From Mesorhizobium sp. (GTDB lineage Bacteria; Pseudomonadota; Alphaproteobacteria; Rhizobiales; Rhizobiaceae), in contig NZ_SUEO01000046.1 in assembly GCF_004962925.1 (NCBI RefSeq), positions 1-32,767 on the forward strand: DNA of 32,767 nucleotides. Reading direction: 5' to 3'. The notes beneath the pieces are model-generated. The model was not told the DNA's origin. It saw only the letters and a list, made by a program, of their open reading frames with translations, and did not search any database. Both the position numbers and the translations under genes were made by a program. Within the stretch, counting starts at the first letter, position 1; every line of letters starts with the position of its first letter. Below are positions 14,361-30,046 of this stretch, in pieces.

Positions 14361-14480
14361 GTTTCCGCTGAAATTCTTGAAGCTCTTTCAAGACGGGTGC
14401 CGCTTTGCGATGACAGCAGGCCGCGCATACCATGCCTGCGGGAACACAGAACATGTCTGGCAAACCAGATGGGAGGCACT

Positions 14481-16046
14481 GTGAGTGCAAATCAGGACGG
14501 CGCAAACCTGCTTGAGGTTCGTGGCCTCACCAAGACGTTCGGCACGCTGACAGCGTGCGACCATATCGATCTCAATGTCGCAAAAGGCGAAATCCACGCG
14601 TTGCTCGGCGAGAACGGCGCCGGCAAGTCGACGCTCGTCAAAATGCTGTTCGGAACACTGGAGCCCAATTCGGGCGAGATTTTCTGGAACGGTCAGGCGG
14701 TCACGATCACCAATCCCGGCTTTGCGAAGAAGCTCGGCATCGGCATGGTGTTCCAGCATTTTTCGCTGTTCGAGGCACTGACGGCGGCCGAGAACATCGC
14801 GCTGTCATTGGACGACGGTTCGCCGATCAGCACGATTGCCGCGAAGGCCAGGGCGCTTTCCTACAGCTATGGCCTGCCGCTCGACCCGCAATCGCTGGTC
14901 GGCGACCTGTCTGTCGGTGAGCGCCAGCGTATCGAGATCATCCGCTGCCTTCTGCAGACGCCGCAGCTCATCATCCTCGACGAGCCGACTTCGGTGCTGA
15001 CGCCGCAGGAAGCCGACAAGCTGTTCGAAACGCTCGAACGGCTGCGCTCGGAAGGAAAGTCCATCCTCTACATTTCGCATCGCCTTGAAGAGGTCAAACG
15101 CATCTGCGACCGCGCCACGGTGCTGCGCCACGGCAAGGTGGTTGGCCATTGCAACCCGCGCAAGGAAACCGCGTCATCGCTGGCGCGCATGATGGTCGGC
15201 AACGATGTGCCGACCGTGGTGCGCGCGCCGGCCGAGGGTATCGAGACCGCGCAGCCGCTGCTTGAAATCCGCGCACTCAGCCGCAAGCCGGCAACGCCGT
15301 TCTCGATCCCGCTCAGGAACATCAACCTGACGGTACGCGCCGGAGAAGTGATCGGCATTGCAGGCGTCGCCGGCAACGGCCAGGGCGAGTTCTTCGAATC
15401 CGTTTCCGGCGAGGTGCCGCAGCAGGATGCCGCTTCGGTGCGCATCCGCGGCAAGGATGCCGGCGGCCTCAGCATCACCGGCAGGCGGCTGATGGGCGCT
15501 GCCTTCGTGCCGGAAGAGCGGCTCGGCCACGGTGCAGCGCCGCGCATGAAGCTCTCGGAAAACCTGCTTCTGTCGCGCCATGCCACCGATGGAAAGGTGT
15601 TTGTCGGCGCCGGCGGAATGGTCAAAAGCGACGCGATCTATGCCGCTGCCCAGCGCATCATCAAGGCGATGGATGTGCGCAAGAGCGCCCCGGACCCGGA
15701 GGCGGCAGCGCTTTCAGGCGGCAATCTGCAGAAATTCATCGTCGGCCGCGAACTCGACCGCAGGCCAAGCGTGATGGTCGTCAATCAGCCGACATGGGGC
15801 GTCGACGCCGGTGCTGCCGCCCACATTCGCCAGACGCTGATCGAACTGGCGCGCTGCGGCTCGGCAGTGCTGGTCATCAGCCAGGACCTCGACGAATTGT
15901 TCGAAATATCCGACGCGATCGCGGTGATGCATAATGGCGAACTGTCGAAGCCTTTGCCGATCGCTGAGGCCACGTTCGAAAAGATCGGACTGCTGATGGG
16001 CGGAGCCGAGCCCGGCCACGCCGAACACGCTCTGGAGACGTCATGA
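14481..16046 (+). CDS. nucleoside (BMP-type) ABC transporter ATP-binding protein
   Basis: Duplicated ABC domains; GENGAGKSTLVKMLFG, LSVGERQRIEIIRCLLQTPQLIILDEPTSVL. GTG 14481 preceded by GGGAGG; ATG 14469 is an alternative start. Confidence 0.92.
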   Translation: MSANQDGANLLEVRGLTKTFGTLTACDHIDLNVAKGEIHALLGENGAGKSTLVKMLFGTLEPNSGEIFWNGQAVTITNPGFAKKLGIGMVFQHFSLFEALTAAENIALSLDDGSPISTIAAKARALSYSYGLPLDPQSLVGDLSVGERQRIEIIRCLLQTPQLIILDEPTSVLTPQEADKLFETLERLRSEGKSILYISHRLEEVKRICDRATVLRHGKVVGHCNPRKETASSLARMMVGNDVPTVVRAPAEGIETAQPLLEIRALSRKPATPFSIPLRNINLTVRAGEVIGIAGVAGNGQGEFFESVSGEVPQQDAASVRIRGKDAGGLSITGRRLMGAAFVPEERLGHGAAPRMKLSENLLLSRHATDGKVFVGAGGMVKSDAIYAAAQRIIKAMDVRKSAPDPEAAALSGGNLQKFIVGRELDRRPSVMVVNQPTWGVDAGAAAHIRQTLIELARCGSAVLVISQDLDELFEISDAIAVMHNGELSKPLPIAEATFEKIGLLMGGAEPGHAEHALETS

Positions 16047-17155
16047 TGCGCCTCGAACTCGTCAAACGCCCGCAGCGCTCGATGCTGTTCTCGGCGCTGT
16101 CGCCGTTCATTGCCTTTGCACTGACGATCGTTGCCGGCGCCATCCTGTTCGCGCTGCTTGGCGTCAATCCTTTGAAGGCTTTCCAAATTTACTTCATTGA
16201 GCCGGTCAGTCAGGTCTGGCAGCTGCATGAGCTGGCGATCAAGGCGGCACCGCTCATCCTGATCGGGGTCGGCCTGTCGGTTTGCTACAGGGCCAACATC
16301 TGGAACATCGGAGCGGAAGGCCAATTCATCCTGGGCGGCATCGTCGGATCGAGCATTCCGGTGCTGTTTCCGCAGTTTGAAGGCCCGCTGGTGCTGCCGC
16401 TGATGCTGCTGTTCGGCATGATCGGCGGCGCCGCCTACGCCGCCATTCCGGCTCTGCTCAAAGCGCGCTTCAACACCAACGAGATCCTGACCAGCCTGAT
16501 GCTGGTCTATGTCGCGCAGCTGTTCCTCGACTGGCTGGTGCGTGGCCCTTGGCGCGACCCGAAGGGTTTCAACTTCCCGCAGACGATACAGTTCAACGAC
16601 TCCGCCATCTTGCCGGAACTGATGCCGGCCTCCGGCCGCGCCAATTGGGGTTTCGTCTTCGCGCTGGTCGCGGCGGTGCTGGTCTGGATCCTGATGAGCC
16701 GCATGCTGAAAGGCTTCGAGGTCCGCGTGCTCGGCTCAAGCCCCAGGGCAGGGCGCTTCGCCGGCTTCGGCATCAACCGGATGGTGTTCTTCGCCTTCAT
16801 GCTGTCGGGTGCGCTGGCTGGACTTGCCGGCATCTCGGAAGTCTCCGGCGCCATCGGCCAGCTGCAGCCGGTCATTTCGCCCGGCTACGGCTTCACCGCC
16901 ATCATCGTGGCGTTCCTCGGCCGGCTCAATCCGCTAGGCATCGTCGCGGCGGGCCTGGTGCTGGCGCTGACCTACCTCGGCGGCGAGGCGGTGCAAAGCG
17001 CGCTCGGCATCTCCGATAAGGTGGCGCGCGTGTTCCAAGGTATGCTGCTGTTCTTCGTGCTCGGCTGCGACACGCTCATTCATTACCGCATTCGTCTGAT
17101 CGGCTTTGCCGCGCCGAAGCTTGAATCCGCGCCGAAGCTGGAGGAGGCCCGCTGA
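16043..17155 (+). CDS. nucleoside ABC transporter permease 1
   Basis: BPD_transp_2-type permease; 'NIWNIGAEGQFILGGIVGS'; ATGA overlap with the upstream ATPase. Confidence 0.92.
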   Translation: MMRLELVKRPQRSMLFSALSPFIAFALTIVAGAILFALLGVNPLKAFQIYFIEPVSQVWQLHELAIKAAPLILIGVGLSVCYRANIWNIGAEGQFILGGIVGSSIPVLFPQFEGPLVLPLMLLFGMIGGAAYAAIPALLKARFNTNEILTSLMLVYVAQLFLDWLVRGPWRDPKGFNFPQTIQFNDSAILPELMPASGRANWGFVFALVAAVLVWILMSRMLKGFEVRVLGSSPRAGRFAGFGINRMVFFAFMLSGALAGLAGISEVSGAIGQLQPVISPGYGFTAIIVAFLGRLNPLGIVAAGLVLALTYLGGEAVQSALGISDKVARVFQGMLLFFVLGCDTLIHYRIRLIGFAAPKLESAPKLEEAR

Positions 17156-18075
17156 TGGACATCACCGTCAACATTCTTTTGACCATCGCCACCGCGGCGA
17201 CGCCGTTGCTGATCGCGGCGATCGGCGAGCTGGTGGTCGAACGTTCCGGCGTGCTCAATCTTGGTGTCGAAGGCATGATGATCATGGGGGCGGTCGGTGG
17301 TTTCAGCGCCGGCTATCTCACCGGATCGCCGTGGATCGGGTTGTTGGCGGCGATCGCCATGGGTGCGGTGTTTTCGCTGCTGTTTGCCATCATGACGCTG
17401 TCGCTGGCCACCAATCAGGTGGCGACCGGCCTGTCGCTGACATTACTCGGCCTCGGCCTTTCCGGCATGATGGGCACCAGCTTTGTCGGCCAGCCCGGCG
17501 CGAGGCTGCCAAACCTCGACATTCCCGGCCTGACAGCGATCCCCGTCATCGGCAGGTTGTTGTTCGGCCAGGACCCGATCTTCTACATCTCGATCGCATT
17601 GACCGCCGGCGTCATGTGGTTCCTGTTCAAGACCCGCACCGGGCTCACTCTGCGCTCGATCGGCGACAGCCACACATCGGCCCATGCGCTCGGCATCCAG
17701 GTCATCCGCTACCGCTATCTCTCGGTGATCTTCGGCGGCGCCTGTGCAGGCCTTGCCGGGGGCCACCTGTCGCTGGTCTATACGCCGCAATGGGTGGAGA
17801 ACATGACCGCCGGACGCGGCTGGATCGCGCTGGCGCTGGTAGTGTTCGCATCATGGCGGCCATGGCGGGTGCTGGCTGGCGCCTATATCTTCGGCGCGGT
17901 ATGGATCGGCCAGCTTCATGCACAGGCTTTTGGCATTCCGGTGCCCTCGCAACTGCTTTCTTCGTTGCCCTATCTGGCAACCATCGTGGTTCTCGTTCTA
18001 ATCTCGCGCAACAAGCGTTTGACGATGATGAACACACCGGCTTCCTTGGGGCAGCCATTCGTTCCGGATCGTTGA
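17155..18075 (+). CDS. nucleoside ABC transporter permease 2
   Basis: '[22 protein letters not shown]'; TGATG overlap with the upstream permease. Confidence 0.92.
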
Positions 18076-18126
18076 CAACAAAAGACAACCGGGAAGCTCC
18101 AAGGCTTAACTCAGAGAGGTAACACG

Positions 18127-19194
18127 ATGAAAAAACTGCTCATTGCGCTGATGGCCGCGGCGGCAGCATTGTCGCTGGCGGCGACCGCCGAAGCACAGGA
18201 AAAGCTGAAAGCCTGTTGGGTCTACACCGGCCCGATCGGCGATTTCGGCTATTCGTACCAGCATGACCAGGGCCGCCTGGACGTAGAGAAGGCACTCGGC
18301 GACAAGGTCGAGACGGCATACCTGGAGAACGTCTCCGAGGGTCCCGATGCCGATCGTGCTTTCGAGCGTCTGGCGCGCGAAGGATGCAAGATCATCTTCG
18401 GCACTTCCTTCGGCTTCATGGACCCCGAAGTGAAGGTCGCCAAGAAATTCCCCGACGTTAAGTTCGAGCACGCGACCGGCTACAAGACGTCGGACAATCT
18501 CGGCATCTACAATGCGCGCTTCTATGAAGGCCGCTACATTCTCGGCCAGATCGCCGCCAAGCAATCGAAGTCGGGTGTCGCCGGCTACATCGTTTCGTTC
18601 CCGATCCCCGAAGTGGTGATGGGCATCAATTCCTTCATGCTCGGCGCCCAGTCGGTCAACCCAGACTTCAAGGCGAAGATCGTCTGGGTCAATTCATGGT
18701 TCGATCCCGGCAAGGAAGCCGACGCCGCCAAGGCTCTGTTCGACCAGGGTGCCGACATCATCGTCCAGCACACCGACTCGACCGCCGCCTTGCAAGTCGC
18801 CGAAGAGCGCGGCCTGCAGGGGTTCGGTCAGTCTTCGGACATGATCAAGTTCGCTCCCAAGGCCCAGTTGACCTCGCTCACCGACGATTGGGGGCCGTAT
18901 TATATCAGCCGGGTGAAGGCCGTGCTCGACGGCACGTGGAAGCCGGGCAATGTCTGGCTGGGTATCAAGGACGGCGCCGTCAAAATGGCCCCTTACACCA
19001 ACATGCCCGATGACGTGAAGGCGATGGCGCAAGCCACCGAAAAGAAGATCGCCGACGGATGGAACCCCTTTACGGGACCGATTGCCAAGCAGGACGGCAC
19101 GCCGTGGCTGAAGGACGGCGAAGTCGCCGACGACGCTACGCTGCTCGGCATGAACTTCTACGTCAAGGGCGTCGATGACAAGCTGCCGAAGTAA
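18127..19194 (+). CDS. BMP family ABC transporter substrate-binding protein
   Basis: Signal peptide; 'KACWVYTGPIGDFGYSYQHDQGR', 'ADIIVQHTDSTAALQVAEERG'. Confidence 0.93.
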   Translation: MKKLLIALMAAAAALSLAATAEAQEKLKACWVYTGPIGDFGYSYQHDQGRLDVEKALGDKVETAYLENVSEGPDADRAFERLAREGCKIIFGTSFGFMDPEVKVAKKFPDVKFEHATGYKTSDNLGIYNARFYEGRYILGQIAAKQSKSGVAGYIVSFPIPEVVMGINSFMLGAQSVNPDFKAKIVWVNSWFDPGKEADAAKALFDQGADIIVQHTDSTAALQVAEERGLQGFGQSSDMIKFAPKAQLTSLTDDWGPYYISRVKAVLDGTWKPGNVWLGIKDGAVKMAPYTNMPDDVKAMAQATEKKIADGWNPFTGPIAKQDGTPWLKDGEVADDATLLGMNFYVKGVDDKLPK

Positions 19195-23866: not shown

Positions 23867-24101
23867 CAACCGGAAGTTCCTTGCTTGTTCGCCGATCGTC
23901 GGCGTCGGGTATTCGGACGCCTAACGTGTATGGTTCCCGCGCGTCAAGAGACCGCTTGAGGACAAGGCCGGCAAACCGCCTGATCGCGGTGGAAATCGCC
24001 AGCAGCCGGTGAAAGCTGCCAAGATCGAGATACGCTGGCCCATGGCGCCGGAAAACCGGAATCGGTCTCTGGAAAGAATCGTACGCCGATTCAAAGGGTT
24101 G

Positions 24102-24140
24102 GAGCGTCCTTTGCGCGTCCAATTGGACGCGCGACGCTCT
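24102..24140. repeat. intergenic palindrome, copy D
   Basis: GAGCGTC-cttt-GCGCGTCCAATTGGACGCGC-GACGCTC; inner 20 nt is a perfect palindrome. Confidence 0.6.
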
Positions 24141-24149
24141 AGCGGAGCT

Positions 24150-24539
24150 CTAATTGTAGAGATTGTATTCCGACCAATCGGTTTCCGGAATCTCCTCGCC
24201 GATCCGATAGCGAAAATCCAGAACCTGCATATGATCCGGCGCCGTCTGGCATTTGAATTTCAGCCGGTACCATTGTCCCTTGCTGCGAAAGGCTGCTCCA
24301 GGGCTTGTGATTGCGTCGGTTTCCATTTCGGGAGTCGCAAAAGCATAGGCGACCACGCGATCGGCTTTGTATTTGTGGTCATCATGGGTGATCCGGTCGA
24401 GCACTTCAGCATCGCATCGCTGTTCGAGCCGGGTTTGCGGGTCGAGTTTCAATAAGCCGGCGCGCAGTGCGCTATCCATCGCGCTAGCCGGCCACGCCAG
24501 CATCACCGACGCCAGAACCGTAAGACGGAGCTTCTTCAT
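24150..24539 (-). CDS. DUF930 domain-containing exported protein
   Basis: Signal peptide MKKLRLTVLASVMLAWPASA; 'LLKLDPQTRLEQRCDAEVLDRI', 'ADRVVAYAFATPE'. Confidence 0.8.
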   Translation of the reverse strand: MKKLRLTVLASVMLAWPASAMDSALRAGLLKLDPQTRLEQRCDAEVLDRITHDDHKYKADRVVAYAFATPEMETDAITSPGAAFRSKGQWYRLKFKCQTAPDHMQVLDFRYRIGEEIPETDWSEYNLYN

Positions 24540-24553
24540 GGGCGAGAGGAGCA

Positions 24554-24946
24554 TCATATTTGGGCGGAGAAATCAACTGCGTGCCGTACCGAGCCACGGT
24601 TACGAATGATGAAGACGCCATAAACGGGGTTTGACACGGGGCGGGCGCGCGCGATCTCGAAGCCGCGCCCGCCTCCGGTGACGAACGCCAAGCGGTCCTC
24701 TGCAGGCATAGGAACGATAAGCCGGTCCCAGGTGGTAAATGGGCGGGCCAAGCCCGACGACCGAGCACTTTGTCTTCGCTGCAGCACTCTGCCTTCAATG
24801 AACTTTTTCCATTCGGCGGATGGCTGCGCAAGTGTCTTAAACGCGGCCGTGCAGCGCGCTCGAAAAGATCCCTTAGCCACGACAGCCGCCGGACCTTCGC
24901 CGCCGACTTTCCCGACACTGTTGGCGATTGTCGTGATCGGCTCCAC
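24554..24946 (-). CDS. hypothetical protein, possibly a remnant
   Basis: Open frame with 'RPFTTWDRLIVPMPAEDRLAFVTGGGRGFEIARARP' that looks protein-like; no family recognised. Confidence 0.3.
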   Translation of the reverse strand: MEPITTIANSVGKVGGEGPAAVVAKGSFRARCTAAFKTLAQPSAEWKKFIEGRVLQRRQSARSSGLARPFTTWDRLIVPMPAEDRLAFVTGGGRGFEIARARPVSNPVYGVFIIRNRGSVRHAVDFSAQI

Positions 24947-24976
24947 CGCTTAGAGTTCGCCAAGAGGGGCAGTCAT

Positions 24977-25057
24977 ATGAATACGCAGAGTCGGCCTTCA
25001 TCTCTGGCCGTTAAGATGCCGCAGGCGTTCGTCCGCGCGCTGGAAGAAATGCGGTGA
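24977..25057 (+). CDS. 26-codon small ORF overlapping the start of the large glycosyltransferase
   Basis: MNTQSRPSSLAVKMPQAFVRALEEMR*; AGAGGGG just upstream of ATG; stop overlaps the next start as GTGA (25054-25057). Confidence 0.4.
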   Translation: MNTQSRPSSLAVKMPQAFVRALEEMR

Positions 25058-28000
25058 AGACACAAATGCATGTGCGCATTTTCACCGACAGTGTCAGCTT
25101 CATGGATATTTCCATGTTCCGCACGGAAGGCATGCAGGTAACGGTTACGCCTGGTTGGAAGTATAAACCTTGCGACGTCGCAGTCATGTACGGGCTTGCC
25201 AATCCGCCCCGACGCTCCCAGCAGGGGCGTCTCAGGAACGCCATCTATCGGGAACACAACGGACCCATCGTCGTCATCGAAAGCTCGCTGATCGGCCGGA
25301 GTTTCAATCAGCGCCTGCCCGGTTGGCTCGCAGCGTTGCGCCGTCGGCCGCTGCGCCCGCGGCAAGTGCACCCGTACTACCGCGTCGCCGTAGGCGGAGC
25401 GTTGGGCGACGACGCCGATTTTTGTGCAGAAAACAGCCCGCCGGATCGATGGGAAAGGGTGCAGGCCGAATTCGGGATCAAGCTGAAGCCCTACCGGACC
25501 GAGGGAGATTACATACTCCTGGTCGGACAGGTGCCCAAGGATGCATCGCTACGGGGCATCGACATGGTGAGGTGGCTGCACGAGACCGCGGCGGCGATAA
25601 GGAAGGTCAGTGATCGTTCAATTCTGATCCGGCTGCACCCCAGCACGCGATGGCGAGATCAAGAAGCCATTGTCGATGCTTGCTCCACCGTGCCCAGGGT
25701 CACCATCTCGCGCGGCAGGCAGCCGTTCGCCGACGAGGTGGCAAATGCGTGGGTGTGCGTAACCTTGTCATCCGGTGCCGCCATCGACGCGTTGATCGCG
25801 GGCGTTCCTCCGATATGTCTATCTCCAGCGAACCTCGCATACCGCCTTTGTTCCAACAGTCTCGATGATATCGAGCATCCGAAGCAACCGGAACGGGAGC
25901 AGTTCATGCGCGACCTCTGTTACAGTCAGTGGACGCCGCGTGAGATGTCTGACGGAACCGCATGGAGACATATTTTTCCGGCGGTCGAACGAGAGATGGC
26001 GCGAACCGGCGGTGATTCCGGCGAGCATGGTGCAGGGCGTTCCCGGGTCATTTGGGCAGTACAGGCCGACCACCAGGGCCATCACCGACTAGAGACTGTC
26101 CTGTCGGCGTCGGAGAAGCAACGTTGGGCGAGGTCGCTTGCGCTTTGGACAGTCGCCGCCCGTGTTCTCCCAGGCAAGCGGAAAAGATGTCTGCATAGGC
26201 GGGCCACGGCTCTATTCATGCTCGCCCGCTACAGCGAGGCCGAGCTGGTGTTCTCGGAGCTTCGCAGCCGCAATCCAGACTTTCCAGGCGGACATGAAGG
26301 AGCAGCCCGTTCGGCAGAGAAGCTGGACCACTGGGGTATCGCGGCGGAGGCCTGGGCGGCGGCAAGCAGGCTCGCGCCTGGCCGCAAGGCACTCGCCGGA
26401 CATGCCGCGGCCCTGCTCAAACTTGGAAGGCTGGCGGAAGCCGAAGCGGCTTTTGGCCTGCTGTGCGAACGTTTTCCGGCGGAAATCGCCGGATATCGAG
26501 GCCTGGAGCGGATCGCTTCCGAGCGCGGCGACTGGCCACTCGCACTGCAAATGCAGGATGTCATCTGGAAGACATTGAACGACCCCGACGCTATGCGGCG
26601 CAAGGTTCTGTTGCTTGTGCGGCTGCAGCGAATTGCCGAGGCTAAGGAGATCGTCAAGGAGTTGGAAGCGGGGAGCTCGCCACTTGCTTACCTGCTTGCC
26701 TCGATGCCACTTTTGGAAGCCACGCACGACTGGGCCACCATGAGCCAGCTCTTAGGCACGAACGAAGCGCTGCTCCTCGGGAATTGGCAGCTGCTGCATT
26801 CCTATTTAGGCGTTCTGGGAAGGCTCGGCCGGGCAGATGAGGCACTGGACGTGCTTGACCGCAGCCGCGCGGGTAAGGAGGCAGCCCGCAAGAAGCTTCG
26901 GATCAACTGCCTTATCCAGGCGCATCGGTATTTTGAGGCCGGTGAATGCTTGCGTCAGATTTGGGAGCACGGGAGTATCGACGAGTTCTCGCCTGAAATC
27001 CTGTCGGCCATGGTGAGTGCAGCCTGGGAGGCTGGCGGGGCTGGTCTCGCGAATGTCGTTTTGGATCGCGTAGACGCGGAAGCTCCCCCTACCGTAGCGG
27101 GGGAATTGCTGAGGCTATCGGCGGTCTTTCAGCGTACGAGGCTGCGCTCCCTTAATTGTCTGGTTTCCTCGTGTGAAAGTGCCTTCGATCAGAGGCCTCA
27201 CATTGAGCAATTGGTTCGGGATCTCGCGCACAGCCGGGGAGCGGTGCGGGCTGAAAATCGTCGAGATGCGGTTAGCGACATCTGCGGGATTTTTGTCCGG
27301 CTTCGTTCTGAGCATGCGGCCTTCTTCCCAGATCCCTCCTTCGTCCTGAATGAAGCACTTGAAGTTGCAACGTGCATTGCTGAGGCATTCGATGAACTGA
27401 AGCCTCTTTCGCTGATCAGGTTGGGCGATGGGGAAGGGTGCATGCTTCCCTACCGACCCGAGCTGGAGGTGTTTCGCGAGACGGACAGGGAAGCGACCCA
27501 GCAGACCTGGTGGGGGGGCGCTGCCCAGGTGGATGATGCGCTTGAGTGGCAACTGAAAGAAGCGATACGTTCCGCCGATGTCGTTGGGCTTCCCGATCTC
27601 GATCGCACTAGTCGCGGTATTTTGAGCAACTCTCTGGAGGCATTGGGAGACGGCGGCAGAAATGCCCGCGGCCTCCTTGCATCGATCGAATTTGCTGCCG
27701 GAAACACCAGTAAGCAAGCTGTGCTGACCTCCTGCCATATCCACCAATCCCTATCCTTCTGGGGAATTTGGGACCTATTGTTCCCCAGGTTTGGAGCCGT
27801 GTCCCTGATCACATGTCATGCCAAGCTCGGCGGCGTTCTGGCGCAGCGATACGGGATAACTGTCGAGACGGTTCACCTGGTTCCGCCGGAACATAAATAC
27901 GCCGCAGGCTTCGCCAGCATAGCCGGCGATGCGCACTATCCACACGCCTTCACCAGGCTGAGAGATCGATTGTCGGGACGGCTGCGCGGTCGTGTTTTTC

Positions 28001-28254
28001 TCATTTCAGCCGGCATGCTAGGTAAAATCTACTGCATGTGGATCAGGCAAGCGGGGGGTATTGCCATCGACATCGGAAGTGCCGCGGATTTCTGGTGCGG
28101 ATACGATACGCGCAGCGTCGCGGACATCGTGACCTACAGGAGCCCTGCCGGTGTGGCAGAACAGGTCAGGGATCTAGCGTCGGGGCATTCTCGATTCGCT
28201 CGGTTGCTGCGGCTCGATACCTCGGCAAAATTGTTGCTTGGAAATCCCACTTGA
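25054..28254 (+). CDS. multidomain protein: capsule-type glycosyltransferase + TPR + GT-D fold glycosyltransferase
   Basis: 1066 aa. N-term 'YILLVGQVPKDAS..ILIRLHPSTRW..VTLSSGAAIDALIAGVPPICLSPANLAY'; middle alpha-helical TPR-like repeats (RRATALFMLARYSEAELVFSELRSRNP); C-term 'LSLIRLGDGEGCMLPY..ISAGMLGKIYCMWIRQAGGIAIDIGSAADFWCGYDTR' as in GT-D domains. Confidence 0.75.
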   Translation: MKTQMHVRIFTDSVSFMDISMFRTEGMQVTVTPGWKYKPCDVAVMYGLANPPRRSQQGRLRNAIYREHNGPIVVIESSLIGRSFNQRLPGWLAALRRRPLRPRQVHPYYRVAVGGALGDDADFCAENSPPDRWERVQAEFGIKLKPYRTEGDYILLVGQVPKDASLRGIDMVRWLHETAAAIRKVSDRSILIRLHPSTRWRDQEAIVDACSTVPRVTISRGRQPFADEVANAWVCVTLSSGAAIDALIAGVPPICLSPANLAYRLCSNSLDDIEHPKQPEREQFMRDLCYSQWTPREMSDGTAWRHIFPAVEREMARTGGDSGEHGAGRSRVIWAVQADHQGHHRLETVLSASEKQRWARSLALWTVAARVLPGKRKRCLHRRATALFMLARYSEAELVFSELRSRNPDFPGGHEGAARSAEKLDHWGIAAEAWAAASRLAPGRKALAGHAAALLKLGRLAEAEAAFGLLCERFPAEIAGYRGLERIASERGDWPLALQMQDVIWKTLNDPDAMRRKVLLLVRLQRIAEAKEIVKELEAGSSPLAYLLASMPLLEATHDWATMSQLLGTNEALLLGNWQLLHSYLGVLGRLGRADEALDVLDRSRAGKEAARKKLRINCLIQAHRYFEAGECLRQIWEHGSIDEFSPEILSAMVSAAWEAGGAGLANVVLDRVDAEAPPTVAGELLRLSAVFQRTRLRSLNCLVSSCESAFDQRPHIEQLVRDLAHSRGAVRAENRRDAVSDICGIFVRLRSEHAAFFPDPSFVLNEALEVATCIAEAFDELKPLSLIRLGDGEGCMLPYRPELEVFRETDREATQQTWWGGAAQVDDALEWQLKEAIRSADVVGLPDLDRTSRGILSNSLEALGDGGRNARGLLASIEFAAGNTSKQAVLTSCHIHQSLSFWGIWDLLFPRFGAVSLITCHAKLGGVLAQRYGITVETVHLVPPEHKYAAGFASIAGDAHYPHAFTRLRDRLSGRLRGRVFLISAGMLGKIYCMWIRQAGGIAIDIGSAADFWCGYDTRSVADIVTYRSPAGVAEQVRDLASGHSRFARLLRLDTSAKLLLGNPT

Positions 28255-29774
28255 GCGGGGCATCTCCCGAACTTGCCGTGGTCGTACTTTCCGTTGGTGC
28301 GCCGGCGGAATTGAAGACGGCAGTGGATTCGCTGCTGGCGCAACCAATTCCGCTCGAGATTGTCGTCGTCAACTCAGGCGGTGGCGATCCCCACTCCGTT
28401 CTTTCGAGTGAGGCCCCCGGTATCAGCGTCATTTCCACCCCGCAACTGCTGTGGCCAGGGGCCGCGCGAAACGTCGGCATCAGATCCACTCGCGCACCCT
28501 GGGTCGCGTTTCTTGCCTCCGATCTCGTCGCCAGTCCGGGCTGGGCGGCCAACCGGCTCCTGCTTCACAAGAAAGGCCGCAACTCCGTAGCCTCGGCCTT
28601 GGTCAACAGCCATCCGCGGAACCTCTATGCATGGGCAAGCCATCTCTCGGTTCTGGTTCGCCGGATGCCCGATGTGCCCAAGAGGAAGGCGCTCCGCTAC
28701 GGCGCGAGCTATGCCCGAACGCTCTTCGAAAAATATGGCGGGTTCCGGGAGGACCTTCGGGTCGGGGAGGATACGGAGTTCCACCGCCGGATGAAACGTG
28801 CCGATCGTCCGGTCTGGGCCCCTTCGGTTCAGGCATCGCACCTGAACCCAACCAGTTTCCGGCAGATGATCCAGGATCAGCTTGCCCGTGGCAAGCGCGC
28901 CGCAATCCACTGGCCTGCCCTCGACGAGAGCTCGCTGCTGAGGCGAGGCTTCAGCCGGTTCATGCTCATCGCACCGCTTTCTTTCAGATCGGTTCGAGGG
29001 CTGGATCGCCTGTTCGTTGTCGCATCATGGCCGCTCGTCCTGGCGTGCACCTTCGCCTACGAGCGCGGCGTCGACCGAGGTAAGCGCGAATTGGCGCGGG
29101 CGGGCGGACCAGGTGCCGCGCGCGTGACGGTAGTGGCAATACTCGACCGGGATGACTGGCAAGCGAACACGGATATCATGGTGGTTGTCGATCCGACCTA
29201 CAGACATCTCACCTGGATTCCCCGGGATCTTTGGGTCCCCAGCCTCAACGATCGCATCAATGCGGCATTTGCGATCGGCGGCGGCGATCTTCTCCTGAAA
29301 GCGGTTCGAGAACTGGGGTTTCCAGCTGAGAGCCTACTGTGTGTCAGGCGCGCCGCGACCGAGGCTGCGCTCGAGGGGGTCAGGGTCACTGTGCCAGTGA
29401 GCGAACCTCTCGACTTCTGGTATCCCTTGCATCCTACGCGCCCGATCGAGGAGGGACGCAAGGCCATCTCGTTCCGCCCTCCAGAAGAGCTTCTTTCAGG
29501 CGAGCGACTTCACCAGTGGATGGGGGCGCGGATCATGATCAATCGCAGCGGGTCGGACCTGTTGCGACTGGATCGTCAGCAGTTGTTGCTGAGAGCTCTG
29601 CTCGCGGCCGGCTTTGATTTCCAGCGTGTGCTTCGGGACCCGAGCTTACAGCGGACTTCCGGAAAGAATCCCCTGGCGGCACTGTCCAGGGTGAGGCCTG
29701 ATTGGCACTTCTCCACTCTCGGTCCCCTCAAAGATGCTACGACGGATGGAAAGGCTGTTCTCGTAAAGGGGTAA
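28251..29774 (+). CDS. GT2 family glycosyltransferase fused to a LytR-CpsA-Psr (LCP)-like domain
   Basis: N-term 'LAVVVLSVGAPAELKTAVDSLLAQP..PGAARNVGIRSTRAPWVAFLASDLVASPGW..GGFREDLRVGEDTEFHRRM'; hydrophobic LDRLFVVASWPLVLACTFAY; C-term 'TDIMVVVDPTYRHLTWIPRDLWVPSLNDRINAAFAIGGGDLLLKAVRELGF..DLLRLDRQQLLLRALL' parallels LCP. TTG start overlaps the upstream stop (TTGA). Confidence 0.78.
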   Translation: MSGASPELAVVVLSVGAPAELKTAVDSLLAQPIPLEIVVVNSGGGDPHSVLSSEAPGISVISTPQLLWPGAARNVGIRSTRAPWVAFLASDLVASPGWAANRLLLHKKGRNSVASALVNSHPRNLYAWASHLSVLVRRMPDVPKRKALRYGASYARTLFEKYGGFREDLRVGEDTEFHRRMKRADRPVWAPSVQASHLNPTSFRQMIQDQLARGKRAAIHWPALDESSLLRRGFSRFMLIAPLSFRSVRGLDRLFVVASWPLVLACTFAYERGVDRGKRELARAGGPGAARVTVVAILDRDDWQANTDIMVVVDPTYRHLTWIPRDLWVPSLNDRINAAFAIGGGDLLLKAVRELGFPAESLLCVRRAATEAALEGVRVTVPVSEPLDFWYPLHPTRPIEEGRKAISFRPPEELLSGERLHQWMGARIMINRSGSDLLRLDRQQLLLRALLAAGFDFQRVLRDPSLQRTSGKNPLAALSRVRPDWHFSTLGPLKDATTDGKAVLVKG

Positions 29775-30046
29775 ATATTCCCGGTGCGAGACTCAAGATG
29801 GCACGAGCCGAGCGCGGGCGGCCAACGTCGCGGACCTCCGCTTACGACCGCTTCCGTGGTCACGCCGGCTATTCCACGATCTCTTGGTGGAATACTCGAC
29901 AACTGCCTGGTTCCTCCTGACGTCGCATCACACCAGACGGAGCTTGATTGAGAACGACAATAGGGTTGAAGCAAGCGGCCATCGCAATAGATTTCGGGGA
30001 CTGAAGAGTACGATGCCTGCGAAAGTGTCCCTCACAGGAGAGGCTC

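Follow-up and report, generated by a model that had tools for sequence, protein, structure and literature searches.

A GT2-LCP fusion protein in Mesorhizobium and its anchor-less LCP relatives in Alphaproteobacteria

LytR-CpsA-Psr (LCP) enzymes cleave polyprenyl-diphosphate-linked glycans and hand the glycan phosphate to an acceptor. The window, by which we mean the whole 32,767-nucleotide stretch of Mesorhizobium DNA analysed here, encodes an LCP domain joined in one protein to a family 2 glycosyltransferase (GT2). Since the closest relatives of this domain have no route out of the cell, it looks like a member of a rare, previously undescribed anchor-less LCP branch in Alphaproteobacteria, acting inside the cell beside a GT2 partner. 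In our view there is about an even chance that the gene belongs to a small glycan-building island, in which the fusion protein combines a GT2 with an anchor-less LCP at the cytoplasmic face working on polyprenyl-diphosphate-linked glycan.

Domains and active site of the fusion protein

The fusion gene occupies positions 28251–29774 of the window on the + strand, the same limits as in the earlier note on this DNA, and encodes 507 residues from a TTG start codon which overlaps the stop codon of the upstream gene (TTGA, 28251–28254). Membership of the GT2 family is indicated both by the Pfam match to Glycos_transf_2 (PF00535), which covers residues 10–138 (28278–28664, + strand; E = 8e-14, 52.3 bits, above the cut-off), and by the acidic motifs of this half, namely the nucleotide-binding VNSGGGD (residues 40–46), FLASD (the xSD motif; residues 87–91) and GED (residues 172–174). 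A hydrophobic helix (residues 251–270; 29001–29060, + strand), which falls inside the region aligned with GT2A, the stand-alone GT2 of locus L055, precedes the LCP domain, which comprises residues 292–507 (29124–29771, + strand) as judged by Pfam, AlphaFold2 and Foldseek. In the whole protein LytR_cpsA_psr (PF03816) matches residues 306–451 (29166–29603) with 31.5 bits and E = 2e-7, the Pfam cut-off being 24.6 bits; the earlier note had proposed this profile as a check on the C-terminal part, which clears the cut-off with 34.1 bits when scored alone. The NCBIfam model TIGR00350 scores 26–29 bits, which is under its strict cut-off of 62.3.

A profile built from the LCP parts matches solved LCP proteins in the PDB, including MsrR/LcpA (PDB entry 6uex, E = 2.5e-4), TagV and TagU. 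AlphaFold2 gave no usable model of the full-length fusion (pLDDT 40); the LCP domain was modelled with a pLDDT of 76 and a pTM of 0.76. When this domain model was submitted to Foldseek, all 33 matches at E ≤ 0.001 were LCP-family structures, lipid-bound ones among them. The Pfam, PDB-profile and fold matches, together with the presence of the same fusion in a second species, bear out the earlier note's observation that one reading frame joins a GT2 to an LCP domain in a Gram-negative bacterium.

The active site was placed by sequence-profile alignment to LcpA/MsrR, TagV and TagU rather than from superposed coordinates, using published residue roles from Cps2A (PMC7831098) and further LCP members (PMC6381275, PMC11337229). 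The magnesium-binding aspartates correspond to Asp299 and Asp308 (29145–29174, + strand; Asp234 and Asp246 in Cps2A), and the catalytic arginine to Arg325 in the sequence IPRDLW (29223–29225, + strand; Arg267 in Cps2A, Arg118 in TagT and Arg149 in Actinomyces oris LcpA). The diphosphate-binding block (29529–29579, + strand) consists of Arg427, Asp436, Arg439 and Gln443, equivalent to Arg362, Asp371, Arg374 and Gln378 of Cps2A. The catalytic arginine and the aspartates, which the earlier note had singled out for inspection, are therefore in place, and seven of the eight published positions are kept, with no variation among the 13 aligned sequences. Two replacements occur throughout this LCP group: in the canonical RxR pair Met429 stands instead of the second arginine, and Asn306 takes the place of the arginine of the RSD motif, so that LCP activity could be altered or lost.

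Distribution, relatives and probable origin of the fusion

A search with the LCP-domain alignment found matches in 26 of 146 Mesorhizobium genomes, comprising two fusions, 17 stand-alone genes in as many other species and seven cases with fragments only, which suggest repeated loss. The fusion is carried by the window genome and by an M. mediterraneum genome (G709), and the two proteins are 97% identical and of the same length. These are independent assemblies, and the dN/dS values between the two species (about 0.14 for the GT2 part and about 0.25 for the LCP part) indicate purifying selection, which together rule out a frameshift or an assembly artefact as the source of the fusion. Beyond Mesorhizobium, relatives were found in two genomes of one genus from another family (G474 and G644), and G1044 has an incomplete gene at the edge of a contig. 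The only LCP relatives in a 398-genome sample of the phylum were those of Mesorhizobium; PF03816 itself has the fusion gene as its sole match in the window genome, and of 170 genomes sampled from the phylum it matched this one alone. No LCP relatives were present in the plasmid, phage and viral-contig collections searched, and hence nothing points to carriage by a plasmid or phage. In a survey of the family, LCP proteins were reported to be absent from Proteobacteria (PMC2632651). The earlier note knew of no characterised GT2-LCP fusion, and we likewise found no report of such a fusion, or of a rhizobial LCP protein, in the open-licence literature.

The close relatives of the fused LCP part are all stand-alone proteins, and none of them shows a recognisable anchor or signal. 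In G474, and likewise in G644, the ATG of the LCP gene shares bases with the TGA that ends the transferase gene before it (ATGA), so that the LCP protein begins MTAVVVAVLDRDDW. Its N-terminus in G474, MTAVVVAVLDRDDWGANTD, is the first LCP strand itself, with neither a signal nor a membrane anchor. In seven of the eight stand-alone Mesorhizobium loci that were scanned a tRNA-Pro gene lies shortly 5′ of the LCP gene, which leaves little space for an anchor; we note that in L013, L014, L015, L019, L020, L062 and L063 the LCP gene directly follows a tRNA-Pro(TGG) gene. In-frame stop codons are found 6–20 codons upstream of the start in L014, L020 and L062, and the remaining Mesorhizobium loci inspected have room for at most about 60 codons. 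A simple hydrophobicity scan of the stand-alone LCP proteins for transmembrane-like stretches revealed none besides parts of the LCP fold, the stretch in the longest possible form of L015 (KD 1.96) overlapping the first LCP strand. The L055 protein passes the PF03816 cut-off with 25.2 bits, and two stand-alone Mesorhizobium LCP proteins fall just under it at 22–23 bits. In L057 a secreted-protein-like gene adjoins the LCP gene.

In G474 and G644 both halves of the fusion are present as separate genes of a four-gene operon in the order GT2A-GT2B-GT-LCP. The GT2 half from the window is 52% identical to the operon GT2A over 271 residues, the hydrophobic C-terminal helix included, and the LCP half shares 58% identity with the operon LCP protein. 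In the tree the fused LCP domains cluster with the operon LCP proteins and that of G1044, apart from the clade of stand-alone Mesorhizobium proteins (support 100/99). From these identities and this grouping, the fusion probably arose from an operon of the G474/G644 kind and probably entered the M. mediterraneum group by a route separate from that of the stand-alone Mesorhizobium genes. An in-frame GTG codon at 29124–29126 (+ strand; Val292), giving MTVVAILDRDDW and lining up with the point at which the stand-alone L055 LCP protein starts, is present in both fusion species; on the strength of this alignment it is a probable relic of the former LCP start codon, and possibly still serves as an internal start.

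The third operon gene (L055, 8266–8979; VVAIFSFRYDAHLVPDL...) matches nothing in Pfam or NCBIfam, adjoins GT2A in several genomes and may possibly represent an undescribed transferase family. In another genus GT2A and the transferase-like third gene are paired with no LCP gene (L058, 5861–8692; L059; L066). An autotransporter gene lies directly upstream of the pair in L058, and the pairs of L059 and L066 have genes resembling heavy-metal P-type ATPases and MerR nearby. Autotransporter glycosylation was considered as an explanation and set aside: such a gene is beside the L058 pair (and the secreted-like gene in L057), and the other copies are without it.

The fusion gene lies in an island of about 5.9 kb (24022–29962) which blastn shows to be missing from two relatives, G761 and G717. 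In the blastn comparison with L085 and L086, window positions 24021 and 29963 are separated by 4 bases in G761 and by about 70 in G717, and the flanking terC and AraC-type regulator genes adjoin in both. The upstream gene (25054–28254, + strand; 1066 residues), also inside the island, shares 4 bases with the fusion gene and has a putative sugar-transferase-like N-terminus, TPR repeats and a C-terminal GT-D domain; Pfam supports the GT-D-like region (residues 769–859, 7e-13) and TPR_14, with weak matches to TIGR04396 and DUF6716. Within Mesorhizobium it has near-full-length matches only in the two fusion genomes (G000 and G709). Beside the fusion gene no priming transferase, flippase or acceptor protein turned up, which speaks against the glycan-building role proposed below. 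Within the island, at 24643–24687, the window lacks about 750 bases of a short-chain-dehydrogenase-like gene that are present in M. mediterraneum. Elsewhere in the window, at 14397–19194, are ABC transporter genes (an ATPase, two permeases and a PnrA-like binding protein), which resemble NCBIfam putative B6 transporter families at scores under their cut-offs.

Proposed membrane placement and function

The earlier note had proposed that one polypeptide may couple cytoplasmic glycan synthesis to periplasmic attachment, an arrangement in which the helix between the domains would span the membrane once and place the LCP domain in the periplasm. Such an arrangement is compatible with a GT2 that must be cytoplasmic, with a single hydrophobic helix between the domains, with the extracellular location of canonical LCP domains (PMC2632651, PMC7831098) and with the retained active-site residues. 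Against it stand the LCP relatives, which are all anchor-less, and the helix itself. Its mean hydrophobicity in the scan is 1.54, marginal for a membrane span, and its insertion energy, a rough indication computed on an approximate scale, is also marginal. It is flanked within 15 residues by five Lys/Arg on the C-terminal side versus two on the N-terminal side, and it is the usual C-terminal helix of its GT2 family, also ending the stand-alone GT2A proteins. Instead of the N-terminal transmembrane anchor and extracellular domain of a canonical LCP ligase, a marginal GT2 helix alone precedes the LCP domain here. Cytosolic stand-alone relatives would not prevent the helix from spanning the membrane in the fusion, but we regard the periplasmic arrangement as unlikely. 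With the GT2 in the cytoplasm and LCP relatives that have no anchor, the simplest reading is that the helix lies on or dips into the inner membrane face and that both domains are inside. On the sequences compared, an LCP domain at the cytoplasmic face appears to fit better than synthesis inside with attachment outside. The earlier interpretation is supported as regards the fusion and its retained active site but not as regards the periplasmic placement.

With the LCP domain at the cytoplasmic face, the GT2 half would be held on the inner membrane face through its C-terminal helix and would use an NDP-sugar to add a sugar to a polyprenyl-diphosphate-linked glycan. The LCP half, on the same side, would bind the polyprenyl diphosphate with Mg2+ and its conserved arginines and would break the diphosphate, transferring glycan 1-phosphate to an acceptor (a protein or another glycan) or releasing it to water. 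The presence of both halves on one chain at this face suggests that the same lipid-linked glycan is built and then transferred or cleaved. The cytoplasmic location of the fused LCP domain, the lipid-linked substrate, the direction of the reaction and the acceptor are what we infer. Among PDB structures, the GT2 half is matched best by a PglI-type GT2 (PDB entries 9jma/9jn3; E = 2e-5), a remote match over about 110 residues, and GT2A, its homologue, has weak similarity to AglG. We offer tentatively, and with some doubt, the idea of a cytoplasmic LCP phosphotransferase branch that would link polyprenyl-diphosphate glycan by a phosphodiester to an intracellular protein or glycan, with the GT2 in the same polypeptide. 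To our knowledge, the characterised LCP members all act on the other side of the membrane.

Two further explanations assign the LCP half a different activity. It may have lost its ligase activity and now have a binding or regulatory role, either sensing polyprenyl diphosphate or keeping the GT2 on its lipid-linked substrate. The group-wide loss of the RxR and RSD arginines agrees with this, as does the decay of the LCP gene in seven Mesorhizobium genomes, which implies that its function is dispensable; pure binding, however, would need fewer residues than the seven that are invariant, and we judge this explanation improbable. The LCP half might otherwise be a cytosolic diphosphatase whose substrate is not lipid-linked glycan but a nucleotide sugar or another soluble diphosphate, as the soluble, anchor-less stand-alone forms would allow; docking and simulation of a streptococcal LytR suggest that LCP domains could bind and hydrolyse ADP or ATP (PMC11337229). 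The lipid-bound structures among the fold matches and the resemblance of the GT2 partners to transferases acting on lipid-linked glycans both argue against a soluble substrate, which we consider very improbable.

Comparison with known systems

The PglI-type GT2 shares the GT2 fold with the N-terminal half and acts on undecaprenyl-diphosphate-linked glycan, but has no LCP domain. LCP enzymes have been studied as Gram-positive wall ligases and as drug targets. If the cytoplasmic-face reading is true, the chemistry of LCP enzymes can be put to use in another compartment and on another acceptor, and the soluble stand-alone forms would be handy enzymes for study. A. oris LcpA is an LCP enzyme that glycosylates a protein (PMC6381275), and its Arg149 and Arg266 should match Arg325 and Arg439 here (by way of Arg118 and Arg227 of TagT); in contrast to the LCP domain as read here, it is extracellular, anchored and disulfide-stabilized, and its substrate is the cell-wall protein GspA. 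With the LCP glycopolymer transferases of PF03816 (TagT/TagU/TagV, Cps2A and MsrR/LcpA) the group shares the fold, the magnesium-binding aspartates, the PRD arginine and the R-D-R-Q block. It differs from them in its stand-alone members, which have no N-terminal membrane anchor, in the missing second RxR and RSD arginines, in being fused or operon-linked to a GT2 and in belonging to Alphaproteobacteria. Judged by the open-licence literature, what appears to be new here is an alphaproteobacterial anchor-less LCP branch that is operon-linked to a GT2 and, in one lineage, fused to it.
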